Of a stretch of 35,119 nucleotides of DNA, positions 9,910 through 29,246 are shown in pieces. Source of the stretch: a virus. The number at the start of each line of letters is the position of its first letter. Position 1 is the stretch's first letter. The notes under the pieces are model-generated. The model made no database searches, was not told where the DNA came from, and saw only the letters and a program-made list of their open reading frames with translations. The translations under genes and the position numbers were made by a program. The stretch covers positions 1 to 35,119 of IMG/VR virus record IMGVR_UViG_3300031857_000660; one strand, written 5' to 3'.

Positions 9910-10611
9910 ATGTTTCTCAAAATAAAAAAAAATCTTATGGTTACAGGAAGCAATTGGACTCAAAAAAGAAAACCCAAAAATCCCATCAAATTTAAAATCA
10001 ATTTAAATGAGGAGCAAAAGGATGCTAAAGCTATTATTTTAGAAAATCCGGTAAATGTTCTTAAGGGTGCAGCAGGATCAGGTAAAACCTTGCTAGCGGT
10101 ACAAATAGCTTTAGATATGCTATTTAATAGGGAGATTGAAAAGCTAGTTATTACTAGACCGACAGTAGCAAAAGAGGATATAGGATTCCTTCCAGGGGAT
10201 CTTAAAGAAAAGATGGATCCGTGGTTAGCTCCTATTTATGCAAATCTAGAAATGGTCTACGAAAAAACCAAGATTGAAAAATTACTAAGTGAAGGAATAA
10301 TAGAAATACTTCCATTTCCTTTCATGAGAGGTAGAACATTAGTTAATTCTTGTGTAATTGTTGACGAGGCACAAAACGTAACTATGAGTCAGATGGAAAT
10401 GGTACTAGGAAGACTTGGTATAGGTTCTAAAATAATAATATGTGGTGATACTTCACAGATAGATCTAAAGAACAAAAAGGAATCCGGACTAGATTTTATG
10501 AATACTCTTTCTGCAAGAGTTCCGGGGGTTAAAGTTATTACTCTTAAGAAAAATCACAGACACCCTATAGTTCCTGAAATATTAGATGTGTACAAGGAGT
10601 ATACAACATAG
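9910..10611 (+). CDS. phoH: PhoH-like P-loop ATPase
   Basis: 233 residues, matching the usual size of phage PhoH proteins, which consist of little more than the ATPase core. Walker A is GAAGSGKT at residues 53-60, the Walker B/DEAQ segment VIVDEAQN is at 149-156, a TRP motif is at 82-84, and GDTSQID is at 179-185. The conserved tail KKNHRHPIVPEI begins near 213. PhoH proteins are ATPases related to superfamily 1 helicases; phage copies are common in myoviruses and their role is unsettled, with RNA processing/degradation and phosphate stress both proposed. This is the only plus-strand gene in the window. Its stop lies 14 bases from the convergent stop of the 2258-residue gene, with no terminator visible. 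An alternative ATG at 9937 would remove nine residues. Confidence 0.95.
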   Translation: MFLKIKKNLMVTGSNWTQKRKPKNPIKFKINLNEEQKDAKAIILENPVNVLKGAAGSGKTLLAVQIALDMLFNREIEKLVITRPTVAKEDIGFLPGDLKEKMDPWLAPIYANLEMVYEKTKIEKLLSEGIIEILPFPFMRGRTLVNSCVIVDEAQNVTMSQMEMVLGRLGIGSKIIICGDTSQIDLKNKKESGLDFMNTLSARVPGVKVITLKKNHRHPIVPEILDVYKEYTT

Positions 10612-10625
10612 AAGATGAATAGGAA

Positions 10626-13600
10626 TTAATCTATATCGAACCTAGATAGAGGTGGAAACCCTAATTCTTTTCTATCGTAATATATTGTTCTTAGTAAGTA
10701 ATCATTAGGATTAACAACCTCTGGTTTAAGATCTCCAGCAAAAGCTTCCTTATGATCTATAACTCTTATTTTACCAGAATGTGATGTTTCGTAAATGTTA
10801 CCATTTGCATCCTGAAGTTCACAAGCGATAGAATAGAATCCAGGATTTAAGAATGTCCATATAAAATATGGGGACTTTCTTATTTTAACTATAACTTCAC
10901 CAGTTTCTGTATCGCTTAAAGTCCATATGTGGTCTTTCTTTCCAGGGATTAAAGAATCTATCGGATTTATAAATATAGTGGTTGCTAAAGGTATTTCAAA
11001 TTCATCTCTATAGAATTTTTCCTCCTTCCAAGACCATGCGTGAGACCCAAGCCAAGATTGTACTGATCCTATCTTATTACCACCTTTGAATCTTTCCTTT
11101 GGTATTTTTCCTAAGAAAGCATCTAGATTTCCTCCAGGTGGGGATAAAATAACATAAGGTGAAAATTCAGATTCCCCTTCAAAATAACCAGTTATATAAA
11201 TATTTTCTTCTTTATCCAAAACTAGATCAGCTCCTGAATCATTGTTAATACCTCCAGCTGTTACTATATCTACTAATAATCCATCCTTATTGAATTTAGT
11301 TAAATATATGTCTGTTCCCCCTCTTGATTCTATTTCCTCCGGAGAAAAATACGCTGGTGAAGTGTATGATCCTGTTATATAAACATTTTCCTCAGAATCA
11401 CTTTCTATATCGTGAGCAGTATCACCCCCCAATCCTCCGCACATTTTCATCCAAATCAATTTTCCAGTGGACAACAGTTTTATTACAAATATATCAGTTG
11501 TTCCAGGGAATGAAGATAATGTCTGGTCCTCTATTTTTATAGTTCCTTCATATGAACCACTAATTAATACGTGTCCATTAGGATCTAAACATATTGATGA
11601 GGAGCCAAAAGATGTGGAAGAATCGTATCCAATACTATTAGCCCATAAGCATTCCCCGTCTCCTGTATAGAATTTAGCTATAAACATATCAGGATTACCC
11701 ACACCGGTTAATTGTATAGGTCCTAAATCTATCTGAGAATCAAATACCCCAGTTAAATAAAGGTATTCTTCTTTTAGTATTCCTATCTCATATGCTTTAG
11801 AATACGTGGTATTCGTAAATTGCTTAGCCCAAACAAAAGTCATAGAAGGATCTAATTTAGCTAAGAATCCAGAATCTTGTCCGGTTGATATTAAAGATGA
11901 CGAGCCAAGGATTAGATTTCCTTGGAATCCTCCACATATATAAATATTTTCATACTTATCTACTTTAATATCGCCTATGTATTGATCTGGTGTAATAGGT
12001 ATATTCAAAGAATTTAATAAAACACCATCAAAATTAAACTTATCTATTTGTATAAATCCAGTAAGATTATTATCGCTAACTACATATATGTTTCCATTCG
12101 TATCTGTTATAACAGATCTAGCATAAATAGGGCCTTGAGGTGATGTTGATGCTATAGATCTAGCCCATTGTATAACTCCGCCTTTATTATATTTAGCTAT
12201 ATAAACTCCTTGGTCTAATGATGTTAGATATAGATCCTGAGTACCTATATTATTAACCTCACCCATAAATATAGTACCAGTAAAGTCTCCAATAGCTATT
12301 ATGTCACCCTCGTTGTCTACTGTAACCTTGACACCCTGGTCAGGATTGCTATTACCTAGTGTTATAACCCATTCGAAATTATCAAAAAGATCCCTAGATT
12401 TTTTCTTAGCTATTCTCTCTATTTGGGAGTTTTTCCAGTAAGGTTCTTTATTGGCTTTGCCGTTTAAAATATCTCTTAAGGGAGCGTATAAGAAGACATC
12501 GTCTATATTCAAAGATGGAAATTGGTCTTTCAATCGATCGATGCTGTAGCGCTGCCAAATAGGCTTATACCAAGAATATCTATCAACATTAGGCATGATA
12601 GGTCTGGTGTAATCTGAATTTAAAGTTATATTATCATAATAAGGGCCAACTATAAAGTTAAAACCTAATTGTGATGTGCCTATACCAGAATCAAAAATAT
12701 ATTCTACTGACGGAAGAGGACTAGAAGTATCATGATAAATAAAATCCCATCCATTAGTACCAGGATCCTTAGATGTCGCCTGTATATGAGGTATTATATA
12801 ATCTATTTTACCTATCTCTCCATCCTTTGTTAGAATTAAAAGATTCTTAGGGAAAGTTGTTTCCCCATTTTTAATAGTTTTCCATGGTGCGGATAATGAT
12901 ATCTTACCAAAATTACAATCAACAGGATTTATAAGAGTAGTTCCATCATTTCTATATAAAACTTTAGTAAAATAGTATCCATCGAAATAATAAAGCTCTG
13001 TATTAGAAGGGGAAGAACTAGAATCTATAGTAAACCATATATTACTGTTTCCTGTTTCTATTATGCTTTTTACAGATCCTAAATTTAGTTCAGGATTAGT
13101 AGCATTGTTCCAAACCGCCCATCTTATATCATCCCAATAAACTAAACCATCGGAAGTTCCTATCCATTTATGATTTAGCTTATCTAATTCAATAGAATAA
13201 ACATTATTTGAAGGAATACCTGAGTTACCTATATTATAGTTTTTAAAATTAACCCCATCAAATCTAGAAATTCCGTTATCTGTTGCTATCCATAAGTACC
13301 ACTTGTTTATCGAGTAATATTGTAATTTAAGATCTCTTATATTATCGGAAGGTATATCAGAATTAGAAGTTGTATAAAGATTCCAAGATTTTGCACTAGA
13401 ATCATAGAAAAGTAATCCGTCATAAGAAGGTGAAGAGTTGCAAGTAAATCCTGCAAATATGTCCCCTCTCTGCGGATTTATTTCTATACAATTTATACTA
13501 GAAGGTGTTATAGGAGATATTGGATTTCCTCCATTATCTACAAAATCATTAACAGAATATGCAAAACTATCTGATGGATCTTTCTCGTTTATTTTAACTA

Positions 13601-16600
13601 GAGGTACAAGATTGTTTTCTAATCCTATCCATTTTATATCATTTCTATCTATTTTTATACAATTAGTAAGAAGAGATACTCCAGGCATTACACTGTTACT
13701 TGAATCATAATTTGTGTAATTAACACCATCGAATTTTATGACATCCTCACCGGTTACCCATATATCACCATCAGCATCCCAAGCTATTCCTGTAGGTTCA
13801 AATAGTACAGGCGAATAAGTAGGAACTTTATAAAATTTAGATTGTATATTTTTAGGTCCTGGATTTGTACTAAGATCTGGAGATATGGGATTAGCGTTAG
13901 GATAAAAATTATTAGAAAGCTCTGAAAATCCTCTTACAACATAATCAAACCTTTTTATATTTTCGTCTATAGAATTGTTTAACTGATCCGCAGCTTCCTT
14001 AAGATCTAAATAATTATTTCCGGGAGAATCAGTCTCACCAAATACTAATCCATTAGAATCTTCAGTAACCTTAACCCTATCTCCATATTGTAATGAATAT
14101 AGATTAAACCCTCCTAGCCAATCATTATGATAATCGTACATATCCCAAGTATGGGCATAAGCTTTTTCGAAAGAAAAATCTTCAAAAGTTTCCCACGATA
14201 AGCTTTTAGTTCCCCAATATCTCATTTCCTTCTTAGGTAATAAATTGAAGTCATAATAAACATACTCCTCCCTTTCATTTAATCCGCCAGAGAAGGTGTT
14301 AATTGGAGTAGTTATTAAAAGAGATCCAGTTGTCTGAACTATAAATTGTTTACCGTTCCAAAGACTTCCAGAATTATTAGGTGCTTGAACTGTAAAAGTT
14401 TTATAATTAGTAGTAACAGAATCCACTAAATTTATAACCTTATACTTAGGATCTAGAGGAGACGAATTAATTATACTATATGCTAAGCTAGTAGTTGAGT
14501 TTAAATCTCCTTGGAAATTACAGTCTGCTATTAAAACAGCATCAGCATAAAATTTAATATTACCTGTTCCATAAACATATCCTCCAGTTATTGCTGTTAT
14601 AATAATCTCCGGTATTTGGAATGTGTTAGTTCCTGTTACTGTAATAGGATATTGACCTAATGAAGATCCTAAAGAATCATATATCCAAACAGTATTCCCC
14701 GACGAGTATCCATGGGGAGTTAATGTTGTAACTTCAGCTAAATCATATCCTCCTCCAATATAGTTACTAACTATTGTTGCTATGTCAATTTGTTGAACTC
14801 CGACATCAAACGTAACGGTAGATTTTACCTCTGGTAATTTGGTTAATACCTCACATTGCTGTCCCTCATTAAAATTATTAGAATACTCTGGGTAATTCTG
14901 TATAAAATCAGATATGCTTAGTATTTTATTTGTGTTTTCTACTGGGAATATCCATTGTGAAGGATAGCTTTCCCATTTCAAAGGCATATTATCCCAATCA
15001 TAACTTTCAGATTCCCTGAATCTAGTTAATGTATTTAATTCTATTCCTCTCTTATCTACTTTTACTACGCCCCTTTTTATACCTAATGATATAGAATTCA
15101 ATGTATCCCAAACCCTACATTTTATATTATATTCACCAGAGTAAGGTAAGAAATGAACTATAGTTTCCAATTCTGGTAATCCTCCTCTTGTTTGATAGTA
15201 GTAAGGCTTATCGTCATCGTCTTTATAAATAGTCCATTCTATCTCATAAAAATCTAAATAAGGTAATCTATTCCATGAATAGAATCCATTACTCTGTATA
15301 AAGTTCTCATAATAATCAAATACGTATGAACTGAACCCTAAATTAGTAGGACTCACTTTCCAATTTGAATATTCTCCAGCTCCTCTAGTATAAATCATCT
15401 GTATATAGAGGTTTCCTGTTAATGTATTATAGTCTCCAGCACTACAATATCCAAGAACTAAATTTCCTGGCGAATCTACTGACTCAACCCTTACAAAAAT
15501 AACATCTGGAAAAGTTGTGTCGAACCAATTATTTCCTGTGCCTATATTAATATTAATTCCCACAGGGAATGTGGTTGGCAAAGTAAATAATGAAGTGCTA
15601 TAAACTGTTTGTAAGCTACCCCCAGGATTAGGAGATGTAGTGCTTGAATAGCTAGCTATTTGTAAGTCTGTTCTAGTTATTGTTGGATCTAAAGAGTTCC
15701 AGCTTCCACTCAATTCTTCCCAAGATAGATTAAAGGTATCATTTTTTATAATAACTGGACATCCAGCGGGAAAAACATAATCACTACCATCAGAGAAAAG
15801 TTTATATCCAGGAGGATCATAATCTCCGTCACCTAAAAATTTAGGCATTTCTCCATTTGTAATGTCCTGATAGAAAAGATTTACTGCATTTTCTAATGAT
15901 GGTATAGTGGAGATAGGATATTCTTGAAAATATGAATAAGGATCTACTGTGTTTCCGTAATAGCTTATTCCCTCTTCTACTCCATTTATATTTGGATATA
16001 AAAGACCGCTCTGATTTGGTTTTGTATAGAAAGGTCTAAGATCTTCTACGTATCCTCTTTCGGGATAAACATTAAAACCTACTTTTATACCCCCTTTTAT
16101 TTCAGTGATATCTACAACATCAGTCCATCCTCTTGTTTTATATAAATTAAAATATACACCCTCTCCTGTAATATCTATTATCCTAGCATTTAAGGGAAGG
16201 TAGTCTCTTTTAAGTCTTTGCTTTAATCCAAAAAGTTTTATTAGTACCTCTTCTGGACTAAAAGCAAAAGCATCTTCAACTATTGGATATCCGTACTGAT
16301 CCTCCTCCTGATCTTCTACTACTCTATTTATATCATAGAATAATCCAAATAAAGCAGTTTTCTTATAAGACTTGGACGGGAAAAGACTTTCGAATTGTTT
16401 TTTTAAACCAAACGTACCGTCTTTTTTCTTACCGTATATTTCTACCTGCTTAAACTTTCCCTGGTTCTCATCCTTTATTAAACTACTTATTAGTTCCAAT
16501 TTATTAAGTCCCTCTATATTAGGCTGGCTTAATTGATTTAATATTTTTTGGTTTTGTTGTAGTGGGGTAAGGGTATCTGCTTCGTCAGTTTTTATATTAA

Positions 16601-17402
16601 GCCAATATTCTTTAACTCTTAGATCATAATAACCAAAGAATTTTATAGCATTAAAAAGAGATTTATATGATCCTAAATAAGGGAAAATGCTCTCTCCTGC
16701 TAATAAAAGCTCCTTTCTTTTTTTGTTTATTATTTCATAGTCAGGAAATTCTTCTTTTATATCACTTTCTCTTACTATTAAAGCATCATCTGGATTAAAA
16801 GATCTTCCGAAATTGGAGAGAGTAACAGACAATCTGCTATCTTCTCCTTCAACCTCACCATGTAGTTCTACTTTTAATATAGTTACTGGATTATTAGGAT
16901 CTGTATAATCCTCTATTATTAATCTCCTATCATATATTCCTTCGCTATCAGAATTTAAAGCTATGTTTATCTGCATAGAAGATGGACTGATATCACTACT
17001 AACAACCAATCCGCTAGGAGATGCTACAACGTCACCAGGAACTATCTCTGGGTAAAATTCTACGTTATTCGCTTTAACTAATACAGGAGCATCAAGATTT
17101 CCATCCACTCCCAATTCATATGTGTATATGATAGAAGAAACATTAGTACTTCCATCATAATCTGATTCCCATCTTGTTCTCCATACGGAAGGACCTGGAC
17201 TAACACCATATGAATGTGGAAAACCATATTTTATTTCAGATAGAGGGTTTAGAAATTTTTCTATTATAAATATATGTTGGACCTCAAAAAGCTTCTCAGA
17301 AACAATAGGGAAAAGTATTGCACCCTCCCAATAATTACCATTCCATACAAAATTATATTGATCACCTTTTTTATCAAAAAATAAAAGATTTTGAAAATTC
17401 AT
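10626..17402 (-). CDS. Giant gp7-position baseplate wedge protein with two beta-propeller regions and PKD-like domains
   Basis: 2258 residues. Encoded downstream of gp25 and gp6, it sits where T4-like phages have the wedge protein gp7, but is about twice as long as T4 gp7. The first 480 residues include GESIFPYLGSYKSLFNAIKF and LPLNARIIDITGEGVYFNLY and look like the wedge-anchoring part. A PKD/Ig-like segment lies at about 710-790. At about 1200-1485 there are about six repeats resembling two-component-regulator propeller blades (for example LWIATDNGISRFDGVNFKNY). At about 1690-2105 there are about seven SBBP-like blades (for example EENVYITGSY followed by GTDIYLTKFNKDG), enough for a closed seven-bladed propeller. 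A second PKD-like segment is at about 2134-2230. It starts one base after the 81-residue gene, with AAGATAAG before ATG. Domain calls are by eye; the wedge role is inferred from order. Confidence 0.85.
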   Translation of the reverse strand: MNFQNLLFFDKKGDQYNFVWNGNYWEGAILFPIVSEKLFEVQHIFIIEKFLNPLSEIKYGFPHSYGVSPGPSVWRTRWESDYDGSTNVSSIIYTYELGVDGNLDAPVLVKANNVEFYPEIVPGDVVASPSGLVVSSDISPSSMQINIALNSDSEGIYDRRLIIEDYTDPNNPVTILKVELHGEVEGEDSRLSVTLSNFGRSFNPDDALIVRESDIKEEFPDYEIINKKRKELLLAGESIFPYLGSYKSLFNAIKFFGYYDLRVKEYWLNIKTDEADTLTPLQQNQKILNQLSQPNIEGLNKLELISSLIKDENQGKFKQVEIYGKKKDGTFGLKKQFESLFPSKSYKKTALFGLFYDINRVVEDQEEDQYGYPIVEDAFAFSPEEVLIKLFGLKQRLKRDYLPLNARIIDITGEGVYFNLYKTRGWTDVVDITEIKGGIKVGFNVYPERGYVEDLRPFYTKPNQSGLLYPNINGVEEGISYYGNTVDPYSYFQEYPISTIPSLENAVNLFYQDITNGEMPKFLGDGDYDPPGYKLFSDGSDYVFPAGCPVIIKNDTFNLSWEELSGSWNSLDPTITRTDLQIASYSSTTSPNPGGSLQTVYSTSLFTLPTTFPVGININIGTGNNWFDTTFPDVIFVRVESVDSPGNLVLGYCSAGDYNTLTGNLYIQMIYTRGAGEYSNWKVSPTNLGFSSYVFDYYENFIQSNGFYSWNRLPYLDFYEIEWTIYKDDDDKPYYYQTRGGLPELETIVHFLPYSGEYNIKCRVWDTLNSISLGIKRGVVKVDKRGIELNTLTRFRESESYDWDNMPLKWESYPSQWIFPVENTNKILSISDFIQNYPEYSNNFNEGQQCEVLTKLPEVKSTVTFDVGVQQIDIATIVSNYIGGGYDLAEVTTLTPHGYSSGNTVWIYDSLGSSLGQYPITVTGTNTFQIPEIIITAITGGYVYGTGNIKFYADAVLIADCNFQGDLNSTTSLAYSIINSSPLDPKYKVINLVDSVTTNYKTFTVQAPNNSGSLWNGKQFIVQTTGSLLITTPINTFSGGLNEREEYVYYDFNLLPKKEMRYWGTKSLSWETFEDFSFEKAYAHTWDMYDYHNDWLGGFNLYSLQYGDRVKVTEDSNGLVFGETDSPGNNYLDLKEAADQLNNSIDENIKRFDYVVRGFSELSNNFYPNANPISPDLSTNPGPKNIQSKFYKVPTYSPVLFEPTGIAWDADGDIWVTGEDVIKFDGVNYTNYDSSNSVMPGVSLLTNCIKIDRNDIKWIGLENNLVPLVKINEKDPSDSFAYSVNDFVDNGGNPISPITPSSINCIEINPQRGDIFAGFTCNSSPSYDGLLFYDSSAKSWNLYTTSNSDIPSDNIRDLKLQYYSINKWYLWIATDNGISRFDGVNFKNYNIGNSGIPSNNVYSIELDKLNHKWIGTSDGLVYWDDIRWAVWNNATNPELNLGSVKSIIETGNSNIWFTIDSSSSPSNTELYYFDGYYFTKVLYRNDGTTLINPVDCNFGKISLSAPWKTIKNGETTFPKNLLILTKDGEIGKIDYIIPHIQATSKDPGTNGWDFIYHDTSSPLPSVEYIFDSGIGTSQLGFNFIVGPYYDNITLNSDYTRPIMPNVDRYSWYKPIWQRYSIDRLKDQFPSLNIDDVFLYAPLRDILNGKANKEPYWKNSQIERIAKKKSRDLFDNFEWVITLGNSNPDQGVKVTVDNEGDIIAIGDFTGTIFMGEVNNIGTQDLYLTSLDQGVYIAKYNKGGVIQWARSIASTSPQGPIYARSVITDTNGNIYVVSDNNLTGFIQIDKFNFDGVLLNSLNIPITPDQYIGDIKVDKYENIYICGGFQGNLILGSSSLISTGQDSGFLAKLDPSMTFVWAKQFTNTTYSKAYEIGILKEEYLYLTGVFDSQIDLGPIQLTGVGNPDMFIAKFYTGDGECLWANSIGYDSSTSFGSSSICLDPNGHVLISGSYEGTIKIEDQTLSSFPGTTDIFVIKLLSTGKLIWMKMCGGLGGDTAHDIESDSEENVYITGSYTSPAYFSPEEIESRGGTDIYLTKFNKDGLLVDIVTAGGINNDSGADLVLDKEENIYITGYFEGESEFSPYVILSPPGGNLDAFLGKIPKERFKGGNKIGSVQSWLGSHAWSWKEEKFYRDEFEIPLATTIFINPIDSLIPGKKDHIWTLSDTETGEVIVKIRKSPYFIWTFLNPGFYSIACELQDANGNIYETSHSGKIRVIDHKEAFAGDLKPEVVNPNDYLLRTIYYDRKELGFPPLSRFDID

Positions 17403-17403
17403 C

Positions 17404-17649
17404 TTATCTTACGTATTTATTATCTTTTGGAACGGTATAATTAAAATAGTTCTTTATATACTTAGCTGCTTCGAACCAGTTATAAACAACTTTTTCCATA
17501 CTAGCTAAAATATCCATCCTATTAGAATCTCCGTCTAATACAGGATTAGAAAGTGTTTTTTCGAATATTTTACCTTCATAATCAAATCCCAAATTAGATC
17601 TATCGTCGTTTTGGGTATTTATAAATTCGTACCAGCTTTTTTTATCCAT
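17404..17649 (-). CDS. Small conserved-looking baseplate-cluster protein, unknown
   Basis: 81 residues, MDKKSWYEFINTQNDDRSNL onward, soluble, with no signal peptide or membrane segment. The second half (about 45-75) is helical, with aromatic residues (SMEKVVYNWFEAAKYIKNYF). It lies between gp6 and the gp7-position giant with one-base gaps on both sides, so it is almost certainly translated with them. Its size and place suggest a small wedge component or assembly factor, but no family is recognised. The ATG is preceded by GGAAATTAAA, a weak Shine-Dalgarno-like match inside the end of gp6. Confidence 0.75.
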   Translation of the reverse strand: MDKKSWYEFINTQNDDRSNLGFDYEGKIFEKTLSNPVLDGDSNRMDILASMEKVVYNWFEAAKYIKNYFNYTVPKDNKYVR

Positions 17650-17650
17650 T

Positions 17651-19348
17651 TTAATTTCCTGTATTTAAAGAACTTTTTAATATGCTATTTACTTTGGAAT
17701 TATAAGTATTAGCTACTATAGATCTAATATCTATGTTTATAGAAGAAAGAGTTGTCATACCAGCTCCTAGATCATAATATATTCCATTCCTATCTTCCCA
17801 TCCCCCCGATATTATAACTATCTCATCTTTTCCTATAACTATATCACCAAATTCATCAAATCCTATCTCTGGTGAATTTGGACTTTGTGCTTTAGCTGCT
17901 TCGTTTTCTTCCCCTACAAAATATAAAGAAACTGAATCTACACCCTGTATAGCCTCAACAGCTGCAATTAAATCTGATCTAGGTATCTTATCCCTTCTTC
18001 TTATATTTAAGAAATAGTCACTCATAGTGTTTACTATCTGCGATTTTATGGTATCGGGATCATTACCTTCAAATATAGTAATAGCTATGTTTATTACATA
18101 TTTTTTTATTACAGGATCTAGTATTTTAACCTCAGTTGTAACTATTTTCTGTCCACTTTCGTCTAACAAAGCGTAAATACTATTTCTTTGTGCATTAGTT
18201 AATTTAAATCTTGATACTGGTATATCAAAATATGTTTCATTACTTTTTAGTGTTATCTGTATATCAGGAACTAAGATAAGGTATATTATATTGTCGTCAT
18301 CTATGTATTGATCATCAAAAGTTGTAAATGCTTCTATTATAGAAAACTGACCAAATTTTTCAAAATAAGTTATGTAATTAGTCGGATTGGCCAAGACAAA
18401 ACTTCTTGAAGTTTTAGGTGCTATTAATCTAGTTAAATCTATAGATTCTTGATTAGCTCCTAATTGTGGAATAACTGTACAGCTAACGCTTAAAACTTCA
18501 GAAAGAGTTACACCATTACCAAAAAGATCTGTACCCTCCGAATCGAAATTAAATATTATCTGTGAAGAATCCTCTACTATAATATTTCCACTAGATCCAG
18601 CAGATTCTAAATAATTTACTTGTATAATAGAGCCAGGTGCTGGAGGAAGACCAAAATTTGTATTACCAAAGAAAATGTCTATACCAGATATTATAGAGCT
18701 TCTGACTATATAGCCTCTACCATTTCTAGGTATGTCGTATAAAGATTCGTATCTTTTCCACTCCACTCCGTTTATTTTTACGTCAACCTCGAAGTTTTCT
18801 ATTCCAGAAGTACCTCTGGAAGATATATTAAAGCTCTGTAAAATATCTCCAGATCCAGTATATTGATTAGTACTTATTGTTCCTTCTATTATAGAACAAA
18901 GTAAATTGGAAGACCCATCTAAATTTAATCTAGTATATTCTTGTGGAAATTTCAATAGATATGTTTTTCCATTGTTGACACATTTTATTTCAGAGTTTTT
19001 TGGAATTAAAACCGCGCCACCTCCTATATTTTCTGCGCCCCTACCATTCCATTTTATAAGTACCTCTCCTTTTGCTGATATACTTCTTGTTGGATTATGG
19101 CCAGCAAGAGTAGCAAGACCGTATACGGATGATTCTCTAGTTGCGGTATTAATATTTAATTCCGTTATGGAATCTTCAATAAAAAATAAAACAAATTGTG
19201 AAAGATTGTCAAGTACAAATATTATCTGACCCCATACAGAAGCTACAGTAAATAATTGGTTAGACATCCCATATCTTGCCTGTATTAACTCAAAAGTTTG
19301 GGTTAGAAGGTCGGATATTTTAGCGTTACTTTTCGATAATAAATCCAT
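17651..19348 (-). CDS. gp6: Baseplate wedge protein, gp6/baseplate J-like
   Basis: 565 residues. The protein has the layout of T4 gp6 and baseplate J family proteins: a helical N-terminus, then ESSVYGLATLAGHNPTRSIS near residues 72-92, beta-rich middle domains, and a C-terminal module at about 400-485. In that module VKILDPVIKKYVINIAITIF leads into a helix and RRRDKIPRSDLIAAVEAIQG, typical of the gp6/J C-terminal domain. In contractile tails this protein dimerises to form the ring that links wedges and triggers sheath contraction. The immediately upstream gene is gp25, the partner expected in the wedge core, with a two-base gap. The family call rests on motifs plus synteny; T4 gp6 is somewhat longer (about 660 residues). 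Confidence 0.87.
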   Translation of the reverse strand: MDLLSKSNAKISDLLTQTFELIQARYGMSNQLFTVASVWGQIIFVLDNLSQFVLFFIEDSITELNINTATRESSVYGLATLAGHNPTRSISAKGEVLIKWNGRGAENIGGGAVLIPKNSEIKCVNNGKTYLLKFPQEYTRLNLDGSSNLLCSIIEGTISTNQYTGSGDILQSFNISSRGTSGIENFEVDVKINGVEWKRYESLYDIPRNGRGYIVRSSIISGIDIFFGNTNFGLPPAPGSIIQVNYLESAGSSGNIIVEDSSQIIFNFDSEGTDLFGNGVTLSEVLSVSCTVIPQLGANQESIDLTRLIAPKTSRSFVLANPTNYITYFEKFGQFSIIEAFTTFDDQYIDDDNIIYLILVPDIQITLKSNETYFDIPVSRFKLTNAQRNSIYALLDESGQKIVTTEVKILDPVIKKYVINIAITIFEGNDPDTIKSQIVNTMSDYFLNIRRRDKIPRSDLIAAVEAIQGVDSVSLYFVGEENEAAKAQSPNSPEIGFDEFGDIVIGKDEIVIISGGWEDRNGIYYDLGAGMTTLSSINIDIRSIVANTYNSKVNSILKSSLNTGN

Positions 19349-19350
19349 AT

Positions 19351-19722
19351 TTATAATATTTTAATTCCTAATATAGGATTACCCTTTATTGCAAAATCTA
19401 TTACACAGGCATCTCTTGTTTCTCCTCTTAAAAATCCTATTGTGTATTTCACGTCGAAAATACTAAAGGCCATAGGAACATATGTGGCTAAGTGAATATC
19501 TATTGCTCTTGATAGCGTTGATTCGTCAACCTCGAGATCAAATATTAATCCCTCTAGATCTATACCAAAATAAGGATCTCCTAAAACCTCACCTGGCCTC
19601 GAGAGCATACAATTTTTAATCATCCCTATCAAGATTTCCACATCATCATTAGTGTGAAGAAACCCTTCCTTATAATTAGGATCTTGAGGTCCCCTCGGAT
19701 AAATTTCACTTAATCTTGCCAT
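19351..19722 (-). CDS. gp25: Baseplate wedge protein gp25-like (sheath-initiator family)
   Basis: 123 residues, close to T4 gp25 (132). The family signature is visible: a helix (DVEILIGMIKNCML) followed by LSRPGEVLGDPYFGIDLEGL at about 54-73, then a helix and the typical strand-rich end (CVIDFAIKG). Proteins of this family join the wedge to the first sheath ring and are shared by phage tails, R-type pyocins and type VI secretion. Genes for gp25 and gp6 are adjacent in most contractile systems, as here. The ATG at 19722 follows a 108-base spacer, so this gene may open a new transcription unit. No Shine-Dalgarno sequence precedes it (ATATAGATCAAC). Confidence 0.9.
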   Translation of the reverse strand: MARLSEIYPRGPQDPNYKEGFLHTNDDVEILIGMIKNCMLSRPGEVLGDPYFGIDLEGLIFDLEVDESTLSRAIDIHLATYVPMAFSIFDVKYTIGFLRGETRDACVIDFAIKGNPILGIKIL

Positions 19723-22061: not shown

Positions 22062-23171
22062 TTATTTCTCTATTAATTGTATTTTAAGTGTGGAACTATC
22101 CACGCTTAAGATCGAAAAATCAACCGATTCTCCAACCTCGTATTCTTTAATAGAGTTTACTAATTTTTCTTTTTCGATAAGACCAGTTAGACCATTTTCC
22201 ATCTTTATGAAAATACCGAAAGTTTTAATTTTAGTAACCTCTCCTTTATATATTTTCAAATCGGTATTTTCCCCCAAAACTTCAGAAGAAGTATCCTTCA
22301 TTTCTTGGATATTTTTCATCTTCTCGTTTGGTTGGGTAACTGATAAATTTATTCTTTGTGGATTTTTAATATCCATTACATAAAATTCGATGCTATCACC
22401 AGCTTTATATTTTTCTAGATTTCCTCTGTTTGTATCGTCCATAGGTATGATTCCTGTATAGATATCATCCCATTCTACAAATACTCCATTACCTGATAGT
22501 CCTGTAACATTACCTTGATATTTATTAGAGAAAGAAAGATCTTGAACTGCACGATCTATAATTTTTCTTAAATATTTCTTAAATGATACAACAAAAATAT
22601 CTCTTTTCTGATCGTAGACTTCAACCATCACGTTTAGTTCTTTACCTACATAATCTGCAAAATTCATAATTCTGTTTGCTGCAGCTAGACTTCCAGGAAG
22701 GAAACATTCAATTCCAGATAGATCAACCATGAATCCTCCGTTACAAACATTCTTAACTTTAACCTTGAAAGCGCAGTCCTCTTCTTTTATTGATCTATGT
22801 AATTCTCTTTTAAGTGCTTTTTCATATCCAGCAGAAACAGATCCATTGAAAGATCCAGAAGAATCCTTAGTTATCACAACATCTAATACGTGACCTGGAT
22901 TCATCTCTATCGAAGGATATCCAAGCTTTCTCATATTCTTTTCTTCCTTCTTCGTGTCTATTACAATAGTTTGACCAAAAGTGGTCTCTCCTAAAGCTAT
23001 TCCTTTATCAGGATCAACAGATGTTACTGTAATTTTTTCTACTGAATTGTTTTGCAAATCTTTACCCGATATTTTCGCTGAGTCGTCAGGAAATGTATTT
23101 CCGTAAAGTGAAGCTAGTTTTTCCCTTTCTTCTGTGTCATATTCGAAAAAACTAAAATTTTTATTTTTCAT
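22062..23171 (-). CDS. S1-domain RNA-binding protein (ribosomal protein bS1-like)
   Basis: 369 residues with three clear S1/OB repeats at about 132-199 (CNGGFMVDLSGIECFLPGSL), 216-279 (YQGNVTGLSGNGVFVEWDDI) and 306-367 (YKGEVTKIKTFGIFIKMENG). Residues about 42-118 may form a fourth, degenerate domain. The layout resembles a shortened ribosomal protein bS1, which in bacteria binds mRNA and delivers it to the 30S subunit. No catalytic domain is attached, so RNase E/G, PNPase and RNase II are excluded. In a phage the natural guess is steering translation or protecting phage mRNA, possibly relevant because most starts here lack Shine-Dalgarno sequences. It follows a 56-base spacer and is three bases before the amidoligase-like gene. 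Family confidence is high; biological role is inferred. Confidence 0.88.
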   Translation of the reverse strand: MKNKNFSFFEYDTEEREKLASLYGNTFPDDSAKISGKDLQNNSVEKITVTSVDPDKGIALGETTFGQTIVIDTKKEEKNMRKLGYPSIEMNPGHVLDVVITKDSSGSFNGSVSAGYEKALKRELHRSIKEEDCAFKVKVKNVCNGGFMVDLSGIECFLPGSLAAANRIMNFADYVGKELNVMVEVYDQKRDIFVVSFKKYLRKIIDRAVQDLSFSNKYQGNVTGLSGNGVFVEWDDIYTGIIPMDDTNRGNLEKYKAGDSIEFYVMDIKNPQRINLSVTQPNEKMKNIQEMKDTSSEVLGENTDLKIYKGEVTKIKTFGIFIKMENGLTGLIEKEKLVNSIKEYEVGESVDFSILSVDSSTLKIQLIEK

Positions 23172-28319: not shown

Positions 28320-29246
28320 CTAAACTCCTGTTATTCCTGTAGCTCCAGTAGGTCCTGTAGCAGATCCTGTTACACCTGCTCCTGTTACACCTGCTCCTGT
28401 CGGATTAGGTATACCTACCGGAGAATCATTATTTATTGGAACAACAGGAAAATCAGGGGAATTTTCTCTTGTTACTCTAACAGTCTGACTTGTAGCAAGC
28501 TGTTCAAAGCTAGATGCTAAAGTTGAATTAACCCCTGGGGTAGCTGGAAGTTTACTGTCTATAGATATTGCTAATTTTTTAAGAAAGTCCCAAAGAGGTT
28601 CTGCACATACAGCAGAGAACAAAGGAGAATGACCCAAGTTGGTTGTTTTTCCGTCCATCCAAACTTCTTCAGAACTATGTTTAATTCTTGTTATAGCAGT
28701 ATTCTCTATTTCTTGATCCGCATACTTAGTTATCTTTCCGCCTTTTAATTCTATAGATGATGTGTCATCAGCATGAGTTATTAGTATAGAGTTATCATTT
28801 CTTATTATAATTTTAGATTCTTTTAAATCTATTACAAGACCTTTCTCTACAGTATAATACATTTTAAGTCTCTCTATCCCATCATAAATAATAGAATGAG
28901 CTCCATCATAACTAGCACTTATCTCTTCAATTAAATCTGGAGCAAGTTCCTGTACAGCTTTGTATTCTGGACTATAATAATTACCATTATTAAATTGAAC
29001 GTGAACTACCGATCCTAATTTAGGAACAGACATTCTACCAGATCCTCCTCCTAATCCATAACTCTGTTCAAATCTTTGATGTGCCCAAGGAAGATCCTCG
29101 TCTAGTATATCTGGATCAAAAACCCCAAAGACTCTAATCTTAGCTCTACCTTTGAATTCTGGATCCTTGTTATCTACAACAACACCTAAATAATGAGAGA
29201 TCTCAATATTAGGTCTTTCTAATTTATTTCTGTCTACTAATCCCAT
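28320..29246 (-). CDS. Central baseplate spike protein, gp5-like OB domain, no lysozyme domain
   Basis: 308 residues. Residues 16-98 form the gp5/VgrG-type OB fold (HYLGVVVDNKDPEFKGRAKI, then LPWAHQRF and the VPKLGSVVHVQFNNGN strand pair). Residues about 105-205 are short repeated strands consistent with a spike beta-helix (LKMYYTVEKGLVIDLKESKI, SIELKGGKITKYADQEI). A LGHSPLFSAVCAEPLWDFLK segment follows, resembling the region after the helix in other spikes. The last 27 residues are Gly-x-x repeats (GVTGAGVTG, GPTGATGITG). T4 gp5 has a lysozyme domain between OB fold and helix; none fits here. The protein should sit on the hub trimer encoded by the gp27-like gene and pierce the outer membrane. 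Confidence 0.85.
   Translation of the reverse strand: MGLVDRNKLERPNIEISHYLGVVVDNKDPEFKGRAKIRVFGVFDPDILDEDLPWAHQRFEQSYGLGGGSGRMSVPKLGSVVHVQFNNGNYYSPEYKAVQELAPDLIEEISASYDGAHSIIYDGIERLKMYYTVEKGLVIDLKESKIIIRNDNSILITHADDTSSIELKGGKITKYADQEIENTAITRIKHSSEEVWMDGKTTNLGHSPLFSAVCAEPLWDFLKKLAISIDSKLPATPGVNSTLASSFEQLATSQTVRVTRENSPDFPVVPINNDSPVGIPNPTGAGVTGAGVTGSATGPTGATGITGV

Follow-up and report, generated by a model that had tools for sequence, protein, structure and literature searches.

What role could beta-propellers play in a protein encoded beside the baseplate wedge genes of an uncultivated phage? This question is raised by the open reading frame (ORF) at positions 10626-17402, minus strand, of the virus record IMGVR_UViG_3300031857_000660, whose positions 1 to 35,119 (35,119 bases) were analysed as a whole and are called here the window. 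A preliminary description of the 2258-aa product, made from the sequence, had proposed one Reg_prop-type and one SBBP-type propeller, PKD-like domains and a possible surface for binding receptors or glycans. We found that the protein carries two tandem propellers, followed by an Ig/PKD-like domain. The propellers probably help the virus to hold its host, and the most likely role, to which we give a probability of roughly 0.55, is that of a modular adhesion arm built into a wedge protein and predicted to bind glycans or receptors of the host surface. The gene and the parts of its product are the following.

10626-17402, minus strand: gp7-position protein with tandem beta-propellers, 2258 aa (ORF; phrog_28177, 9.6e-24; IMG/VR relatives)
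16845-17402, minus strand: N-terminal beta region, residues 1-186, common to the 998-aa protein of LR756500 (1.3e-38)
16092-16844, minus strand: conserved core, residues 187-437, the most conserved region measured (core alignment; mean pairwise identity 0.82 in 20 class 1 sequences, see below)
15003-15302, minus strand: first PKD/Ig-like region, residues ~701-800 (profile matches to the LR756500 protein, 5.2e-30, and the MaF61 protein, 7.9e-14)
13938-14252, minus strand: conserved region before the propellers, residues 1051-1155 (profile match in residues 780-860 of the LR756500 protein, domain E 1.2e-4)
12798-13847, minus strand: propeller 1, Reg_prop/HTCS type, residues ~1186-1535 (PDB 4a2l, 2.1e-40; AlphaFold; Foldseek; blade assignment)
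12396-12797, minus strand: inter-propeller connector, residues 1536-1669 (pLDDT mostly <50; homologous in 10/10 class 3 propeller ORFs tested)
11088-12395, minus strand: propeller 2, SBBP/CylK type, residues ~1670-2105 (SBBP, 2.8e-6; CylK 7ron, Z 38.3)
10698-11087, minus strand: C-terminal Ig/PKD-like region, residues 2106-2235 (hhalign 97.3%, 2.7e-11; reciprocal hidden Markov model (HMM) matches)

On the two kinds of propeller, profile searches and the AlphaFold model agree with the preliminary description. SBBP (PF06739) scored above cut-off for the full protein (2.8e-6, 27.6 vs 20.5 bits) and again when residues 1195-2258 were scanned alone (4.4e-7), and Reg_prop (PF07494), below its cut-off in the full-length scan (0.005, 17.3 vs 20.4 bits), passed it in residues 1195-2258 alone (3.7e-6, 26.9 vs 20.4 bits). 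When whole records were scanned with Pfam, Reg_prop reached E 0.001 or lower in two of eight fused-class records, L112 and L035; for propeller 1 of the fused forms, the profile searches therefore weigh more than Pfam. As a single query, the full protein had no PDB sequence match at E up to 1. The propeller 1 profile matched ectodomains of hybrid two-component system (HTCS) sensors over a range of 2.1e-40 to 2.1e-9, namely BT4663 (4a2l, 2.1e-40), BT3049 (3v9f, 3.2e-36) and BT4673 (2.0e-9 and 2.1e-9), as well as PorZ (5m11, 2.2e-6), and a profile of the C-terminal half matched 4a2l (2.3e-33) and, across the positions of propeller 2, CylK (6.8e-29). An AlphaFold model of residues 1140-2258, obtained from ten sequences (mean predicted local distance difference test (pLDDT) 65.3, predicted TM-score (pTM) 0.44), shows two mostly confident all-beta regions with a poorly modelled connector. 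Foldseek against PDB returned HTCS ectodomains at the top (3v9f, 5.9e-22), then CylK and PorZ, and VIA-align placed propeller 2 on CylK 7ron (Z 38.3, root-mean-square deviation (rmsd) 2.6 over 366 residues); its rows concentrate on propeller 2 and are uninformative for propeller 1. From secondary structure strands and repeat motifs, not from coordinates, we assigned to each predicted propeller seven four-stranded blades, closed by an N-terminal strand. Seven SBBP blades closing one propeller, as first described, fit this assignment and the CylK match, while the count of about six Reg_prop-type repeats gives way to probably seven. Ig/PKD-like regions were found too, with PKD (PF00801) under its curated cut-off in the full protein (0.036, 14.5 vs 23.5 bits) and at 19.9 bits in the best relative; these regions are therefore termed PKD-like only. 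Matches resembling propellers are widespread among predicted viral structures, occurring in giant viruses, in Bacillus phage G and in Synechococcus phage S-ShM2.

The relation of propeller 2 to CylK raises the question of catalysis, since CylK, its nearest relative, is an enzyme, and the endosialidases of other phages have propeller folds, according to PMC4901313. Like these, one of the propellers might degrade host surface polysaccharide or be otherwise catalytic. We consider this improbable, as the match spans the C-terminal propeller of CylK (chain about 249-656) and not its N-terminal domain, the Pfam matches of the window protein include no enzyme family, and the relatives of propeller 1 are sensors.

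The gene follows a group of small and wedge-like genes on the same strand.

17404-17649, minus strand: 81-aa ORF between the gp6-like gene and the propeller gene (homologous ORF or ORF part directly upstream in 7/7 loci)
17651-19348, minus strand: gp6-like baseplate wedge protein, 565 aa (phrog_219, baseplate wedge subunit, 2.4e-26)
19351-19722, minus strand: 123-aa ORF in the gp25 position (phrog_261, baseplate wedge subunit, only 0.026; homologue upstream of the gp6-like gene in 7/7 loci)

Gene order was compared in seven loci (L120, L113, L135, L107, L112, L047 and L035), and in all seven the homologues of the 123-aa ORF, the gp6-like gene and the 81-aa ORF precede the gp7-position gene in this order. 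Such a placement downstream of gp6, with one 81-aa ORF between, is T4 gp7-like; in T4, gp7 forms a heterotrimer with two gp6 in the wedge. The gene had been described as lying just after gp25 and gp6: by sequence match the gp6 assignment is good, the direct adjacency did not hold given the intervening ORF, and the gp25 assignment, based on position and the phrog_261 match, is marginal. A homologue of a 259-aa ORF is also found upstream in 7/7 compared loci (~8 kb away in L047), and L047 (LR756500) retains the downstream 305-, 727- and 1159-aa genes in the same order. More distant relatives differ from the window in this respect: the pT24 gene precedes its gp6-like neighbour, and a distance of ~30 kb separates the two genes in MaF61.

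Because homology to T4 gp7 was not detected, the label gp7 is positional, and the protein is gp7-like by position and company. Compared by hhalign with seven T4-like gp7 proteins, both the core and residues 1-1195 scored 0.2%, with shallow alignments; the window protein had no match to phrog_964, though T4 gp7 itself matches it; and the N-terminal profile had no match in PDB. The AlphaFold model of residues 1-1195 (mean pLDDT 58.9) was too poor for a fold search, and a weak phage-tail match that Foldseek gave for it (Sf11, 2.0e-3, probability 0.23) was disregarded. Core residues ~228-266 resemble a T4 gp7 segment in alignment A10, by eye only.

Relatives were collected from IMG/VR, where the window protein has matches in 43 loci (53-100% identity, some cut short). 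The best 80 of 448 confirmed loci from a scan with the core alignment added 79 new ones, L040 being already known, and these fall by ORF length, counted stop to stop, into 32 of class 1 (2254-2266 aa), 10 of class 2 (2510-2662 aa) and 20 of class 3 (1331-1841 aa), with 17 whose ORF runs off the locus. In a tree of the core, support was 99/96 for class 1, 93/90 for class 2, 76/74 (weak) for class 3 and 86/92 for the short forms described below, which have long branches and an unsure placement. The phrog_28177 profile matches the window protein over the conserved core and is matched by 30/30 members of alignment A4. A scan of genome contigs with the core returned 2 metagenome-assembled genome contigs, uninformative on host origin; Flavobacteriia are hosts of some relatives.

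Gp7-position relatives without detectable propellers, which the preliminary description had suggested looking for, were found. Six phage records (LR756500, MaF61, PAU, MA9V-2, PTm1 and pT24) hold relatives of 853-1016 aa, and among 11 phage records scanned Reg_prop was matched in none and SBBP in one, MaF61, in an ORF other than the gp7-position relative. L147 (MaF61 ORF172), a hypothetical protein with an open frame of 1255 aa and a weak SBBP match (9.3e-4), is encoded near genes with a leucine-rich repeat annotation. Starting from the LR756500 core, a scan gave 543 confirmed IMG/VR loci, of which the best 80 were taken; being selected by likeness to LR756500, these are not an unbiased sample. 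Within the stretches examined of these 80 loci, no ORF of at least 100 aa matched the profiles of propeller 1, connector or propeller 2 at E 0.001. The gp7-position ORF is complete in 70 of them (893-1807 aa), and the C-terminal Ig domain was recognised in 70/70 by the short-type profile and in 68/70 by the window-type profile, at a median distance of 453 residues from the core (range 413-1019, n=68). The longest core-to-Ig stretch (1019 residues) belongs to the 1807-aa ORF L191:8597-14017, which has no propeller matches.

The LR756500 and window proteins are collinear from the N-terminus (1.3e-38) and the first Ig-like region (5.2e-30) through window region 1050-1160, corresponding to LR756500 residues 780-860 (domain E 1.2e-4; residues 481-543 match about as weakly), to the C-terminal Ig domain, corresponding to LR756500 residues 928-994 (1.3e-7). 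The profile of region 1051-1155 had no convincing match in short proteins other than that of LR756500, and the relation of the C-terminal domains between the window protein and propeller-less relatives (hhalign 97.3%, 2.7e-11) agrees with the reciprocal HMM search. Where LR756500 has ~67 residues the window protein has roughly 970, that is, roughly 900 extra residues in the window clade, which include both propellers and precede the C-terminal Ig domain.

This comparison bears on the origin of the tandem arrangement, as the whole propeller-propeller-Ig unit might have been taken over intact from an HTCS sensor of a host. HTCS ectodomains follow the same order, two propellers of seven blades each and then a terminal YYY domain (PMC3243724), and Foldseek aligns the model along the whole HTCS ectodomain length. 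The terminal Ig domain, however, is already present in relatives without detectable propellers, propeller 2 is of the SBBP/CylK and not the Reg_prop type, and Pfam found in the window protein, unlike in HTCS sensors, no Y_Y_Y and no kinase, receiver or HTH match. Capture of a whole ectodomain was rejected on the shared terminal Ig domain and the CylK-like propeller 2, and we hold it to be highly improbable. We propose that the first ~1155 residues (N-terminal beta region, core and first Ig-like region) together with the terminal Ig domain would represent an older wedge protein, to which two propellers, one of the sugar-sensor type and one of the SBBP type, and the conserved connector between them would have been added before the terminal Ig domain.

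In class 3, a sister group, propeller 1 is found in a gene of its own. Among 14 of the 20 complete class 3 loci examined for a second ORF, the part from propeller 1 to the Ig domain is a separate ORF in 10, starting at the first strands of propeller 1, while L117, L119, L132 and L133 end too early to judge. All ten separate ORFs contain propeller 1 and the connector (full-sequence E 4e-22 to 1e-17), and the terminal Ig domain is present in all six that are complete. Propeller 2 was not detected in them with the class 1/2 profile (best E 0.038); SBBP was matched in 0/15 class 3 records vs 8/8 class 1/2 records, and Reg_prop in 13/15 class 3 records scanned whole (exceptions L117 and L132). Propeller 2 of class 3 may have been replaced or only have diverged. 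As for the gp7-position ORFs of class 3, none matched the window-type Ig profile in 11 loci searched, and the short-type profile matched a single one, that of L128, weakly and internally (domain E 0.0054). In the simplest history, the stretch was first inserted into the older protein and the gene later split in class 3, an order that we infer.

The split form invites a different explanation, namely that the propellers are a docking platform, protein-protein adaptors that would hold long fibres, whiskers or a neighbouring wedge without contact with the host. Propellers are often protein-binding folds, the near-constant length of class 1 suits such a part, and in eight of the ten split loci one to three ORFs of >250 aa lie between the gp7-position and propeller ORFs, as could be the case for a wedge-fibre adaptor; in L135 and L137 no such ORF intervenes and the two ORFs are adjacent. 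Against docking, no propeller is seen in the short forms, and the carbohydrate-binding-type modules and the extra whole propeller found around propeller 1 in some relatives fit a binding surface better. We judged docking less likely than adhesion and the next in rank.

These additional modules were found in several relatives. In L112:8164-15753 an F5/8 type C domain occupies protein residues 1337-1449, just before propeller 1 (2.3e-8, above cut-off), and 2/16 members of alignment A6 have this domain. A CBM5/12-like segment lies in the blade 3 loop of L099 (0.0032) and L107 (0.33), both below cut-off, is also visible in the alignment for L103 and L105, and reaches E 0.01 or better in 2/16 members of alignment A6; the LR756502 (L055) protein has CBM5/12 just above cut-off (6.7e-6; 26.5 vs 26.2 bits). 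In L055 (1891 aa) and L051 (LR756504, 1777 aa) the N-terminal strands lie ~1400 aa from the core. The split genes L135:12678-17708 and L137:9218-14446 contain a DUF5122 propeller (2.1e-71 and 8.9e-77, respectively), whose insertion point, counted on the L120 ORF, falls between positions 71 and 87, by our placement within blade 2 of propeller 1.

To measure sequence variation, 34 class 1 sequences were reduced to 20 non-redundant ones, among which mean pairwise identity was 0.82 in the core, 0.67 in each propeller and 0.79 in the C-terminal Ig region. Top-face loops were less conserved than bottom-face loops in propeller 1 (0.58 vs 0.70, p 0.0019) and in propeller 2 (0.59 vs 0.73, p 0.00031), a difference to be expected of most propellers and weak as evidence.

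Adhesion is favoured by several of these observations. Among PDB sequences propeller 1 is nearest to the HTCS ectodomains BT4663 and BT3049, which belong to a family that binds oligosaccharide signals through its periplasmic domains (PMC3243724). Carbohydrate-binding-type modules (F5/8 type C, CBM5/12) recur in relatives, propeller 1 of L135 and L137 contains a nested DUF5122 propeller, and top-face loops are the more variable ones in both propellers. The synteny of LR756500, the collinearity of its protein around the extra stretch and the lack of a propeller match in the 80 LR756500-like loci point the same way, and there is precedent in the baseplate propellers of phi11 Gp45 and phiKZ gp131. 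The receptor- or glycan-binding surface first suggested is thus made more plausible by HTCS ligands, by the modules near propeller 1 and by the variable top loops, and it stays a prediction. Other points weigh against adhesion. The class 1 ORF length is near-constant (2254-2266 aa), unlike a freely exchanged receptor-binding tip; the propellers (0.67 each) are not the fastest-changing regions, residues 438-700 and 801-1050 being lowest (0.65); top loops are usually more variable in propellers; and the CBM5/12 matches are mostly below cut-off. TM-scores of the model to 3v9f are only 0.27/0.36, with an rmsd of 20.7, and therefore single propellers are supported and their mutual arrangement is not. 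Finally, large nearby tail genes (727, 1159 and 1696 aa) have no assigned function and could encode receptor binders.

In a working adhesion arm, the core would anchor the protein to gp6 and the propellers would face outward, with top faces binding a host-surface glycan or receptor; binding would hold the tail tip on the cell or help to trigger contraction. A more novel reading, a ligand-gated trigger in which glycan binding would shift the propellers relative to the Ig domain and the signal would pass straight to the wedge, is suggested by the position of the propeller pair between wedge body and terminal Ig domain and by the HTCS sugar-sensor domain order. It seems unlikely to us; if true, sensing and baseplate switching would be combined in one polypeptide and a separate fibre would be unneeded for this step.

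Other genes of the window were noted. A PhoH-like gene (9910-10611, plus strand; phrog_170, 2.9e-67) lies just downstream of the propeller gene, which it separates from the conserved 305-aa gene, and is encoded on the opposite strand. Inside the tail cluster, a 369-aa protein (22062-23171, minus strand) has three S1 RNA-binding domain stretches (PF00575, 8e-21), with homologues in 5/7 compared loci and none found in the L135 and L047 stretches examined; an S1 protein among baseplate genes is odd. A gp5-like hub protein with an OB domain is encoded at 28320-29246, minus strand (phrog_430, 2e-14; Phage_base_V 3.3e-4, below cut-off).

Taken together, sequence comparison and structure prediction identify the two propellers, their place, flanks homologous to those of syntenic propeller-less relatives, a sister group with a separate gene, and added modules. 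Propeller-bearing baseplate proteins are already known among receptor-binding proteins; tandem sensor-type and SBBP propellers in a post-gp6 protein, with propeller-less, fused and split forms, were not found in the open-access literature searched. These three forms of one gene at one syntenic place are a natural comparison, single-domain proteins make it possible to test what confers host recognition on these uncultivated phages, and the finding suggests that a bacterial sugar-sensor domain type is reused on a virus particle.

Among known systems, the HTCS sensor domains (BT4663, 4a2l/4a2m; BT3049, 3v9f; BT4673, 3ott/3va6) likewise have a Reg_prop-type propeller, tandem propellers and a terminal beta domain, whereas the second propeller of the window protein is of SBBP type and is fused to a phage baseplate-position protein. 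The C-terminal propeller of CylK (7ron, 7fh6) is seven-bladed and SBBP-like, as propeller 2 is, but the N-terminal domain of CylK is unmatched and no enzyme role is indicated for the window protein. The four phrog_28177 records PAU gp21, pT24 BPT24_246, PTm1 ORF-177 and the 998-aa ORF of LR756500 share the core and have a related C-terminal Ig domain; unlike the window protein they have 903-1016 aa and no Reg_prop or SBBP match. A virion protein of phage CBB has Kelch domains (PMC5259590), and phi11 Gp45 is a baseplate receptor-binding protein with a propeller (PMC4901313), to which the receptor-binding protein gp61 of 80alpha is similar (PMC7048315); phi11 is a siphovirus, and these two are separate trimeric receptor-binding proteins with five blades and a coiled-coil stem. 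PMC4901313 also gives phiKZ gp131 a C-terminal seven-bladed propeller (4GBF) at the periphery of a contractile-tail baseplate, with receptor binding proposed and unproven; by this description it is a putative receptor-binding protein and not a gp7-position wedge protein. Like phi11 Gp45 and phiKZ gp131, the window protein is predicted, from its modelled fold and also from its gene neighbourhood, to carry a propeller in a baseplate protein.

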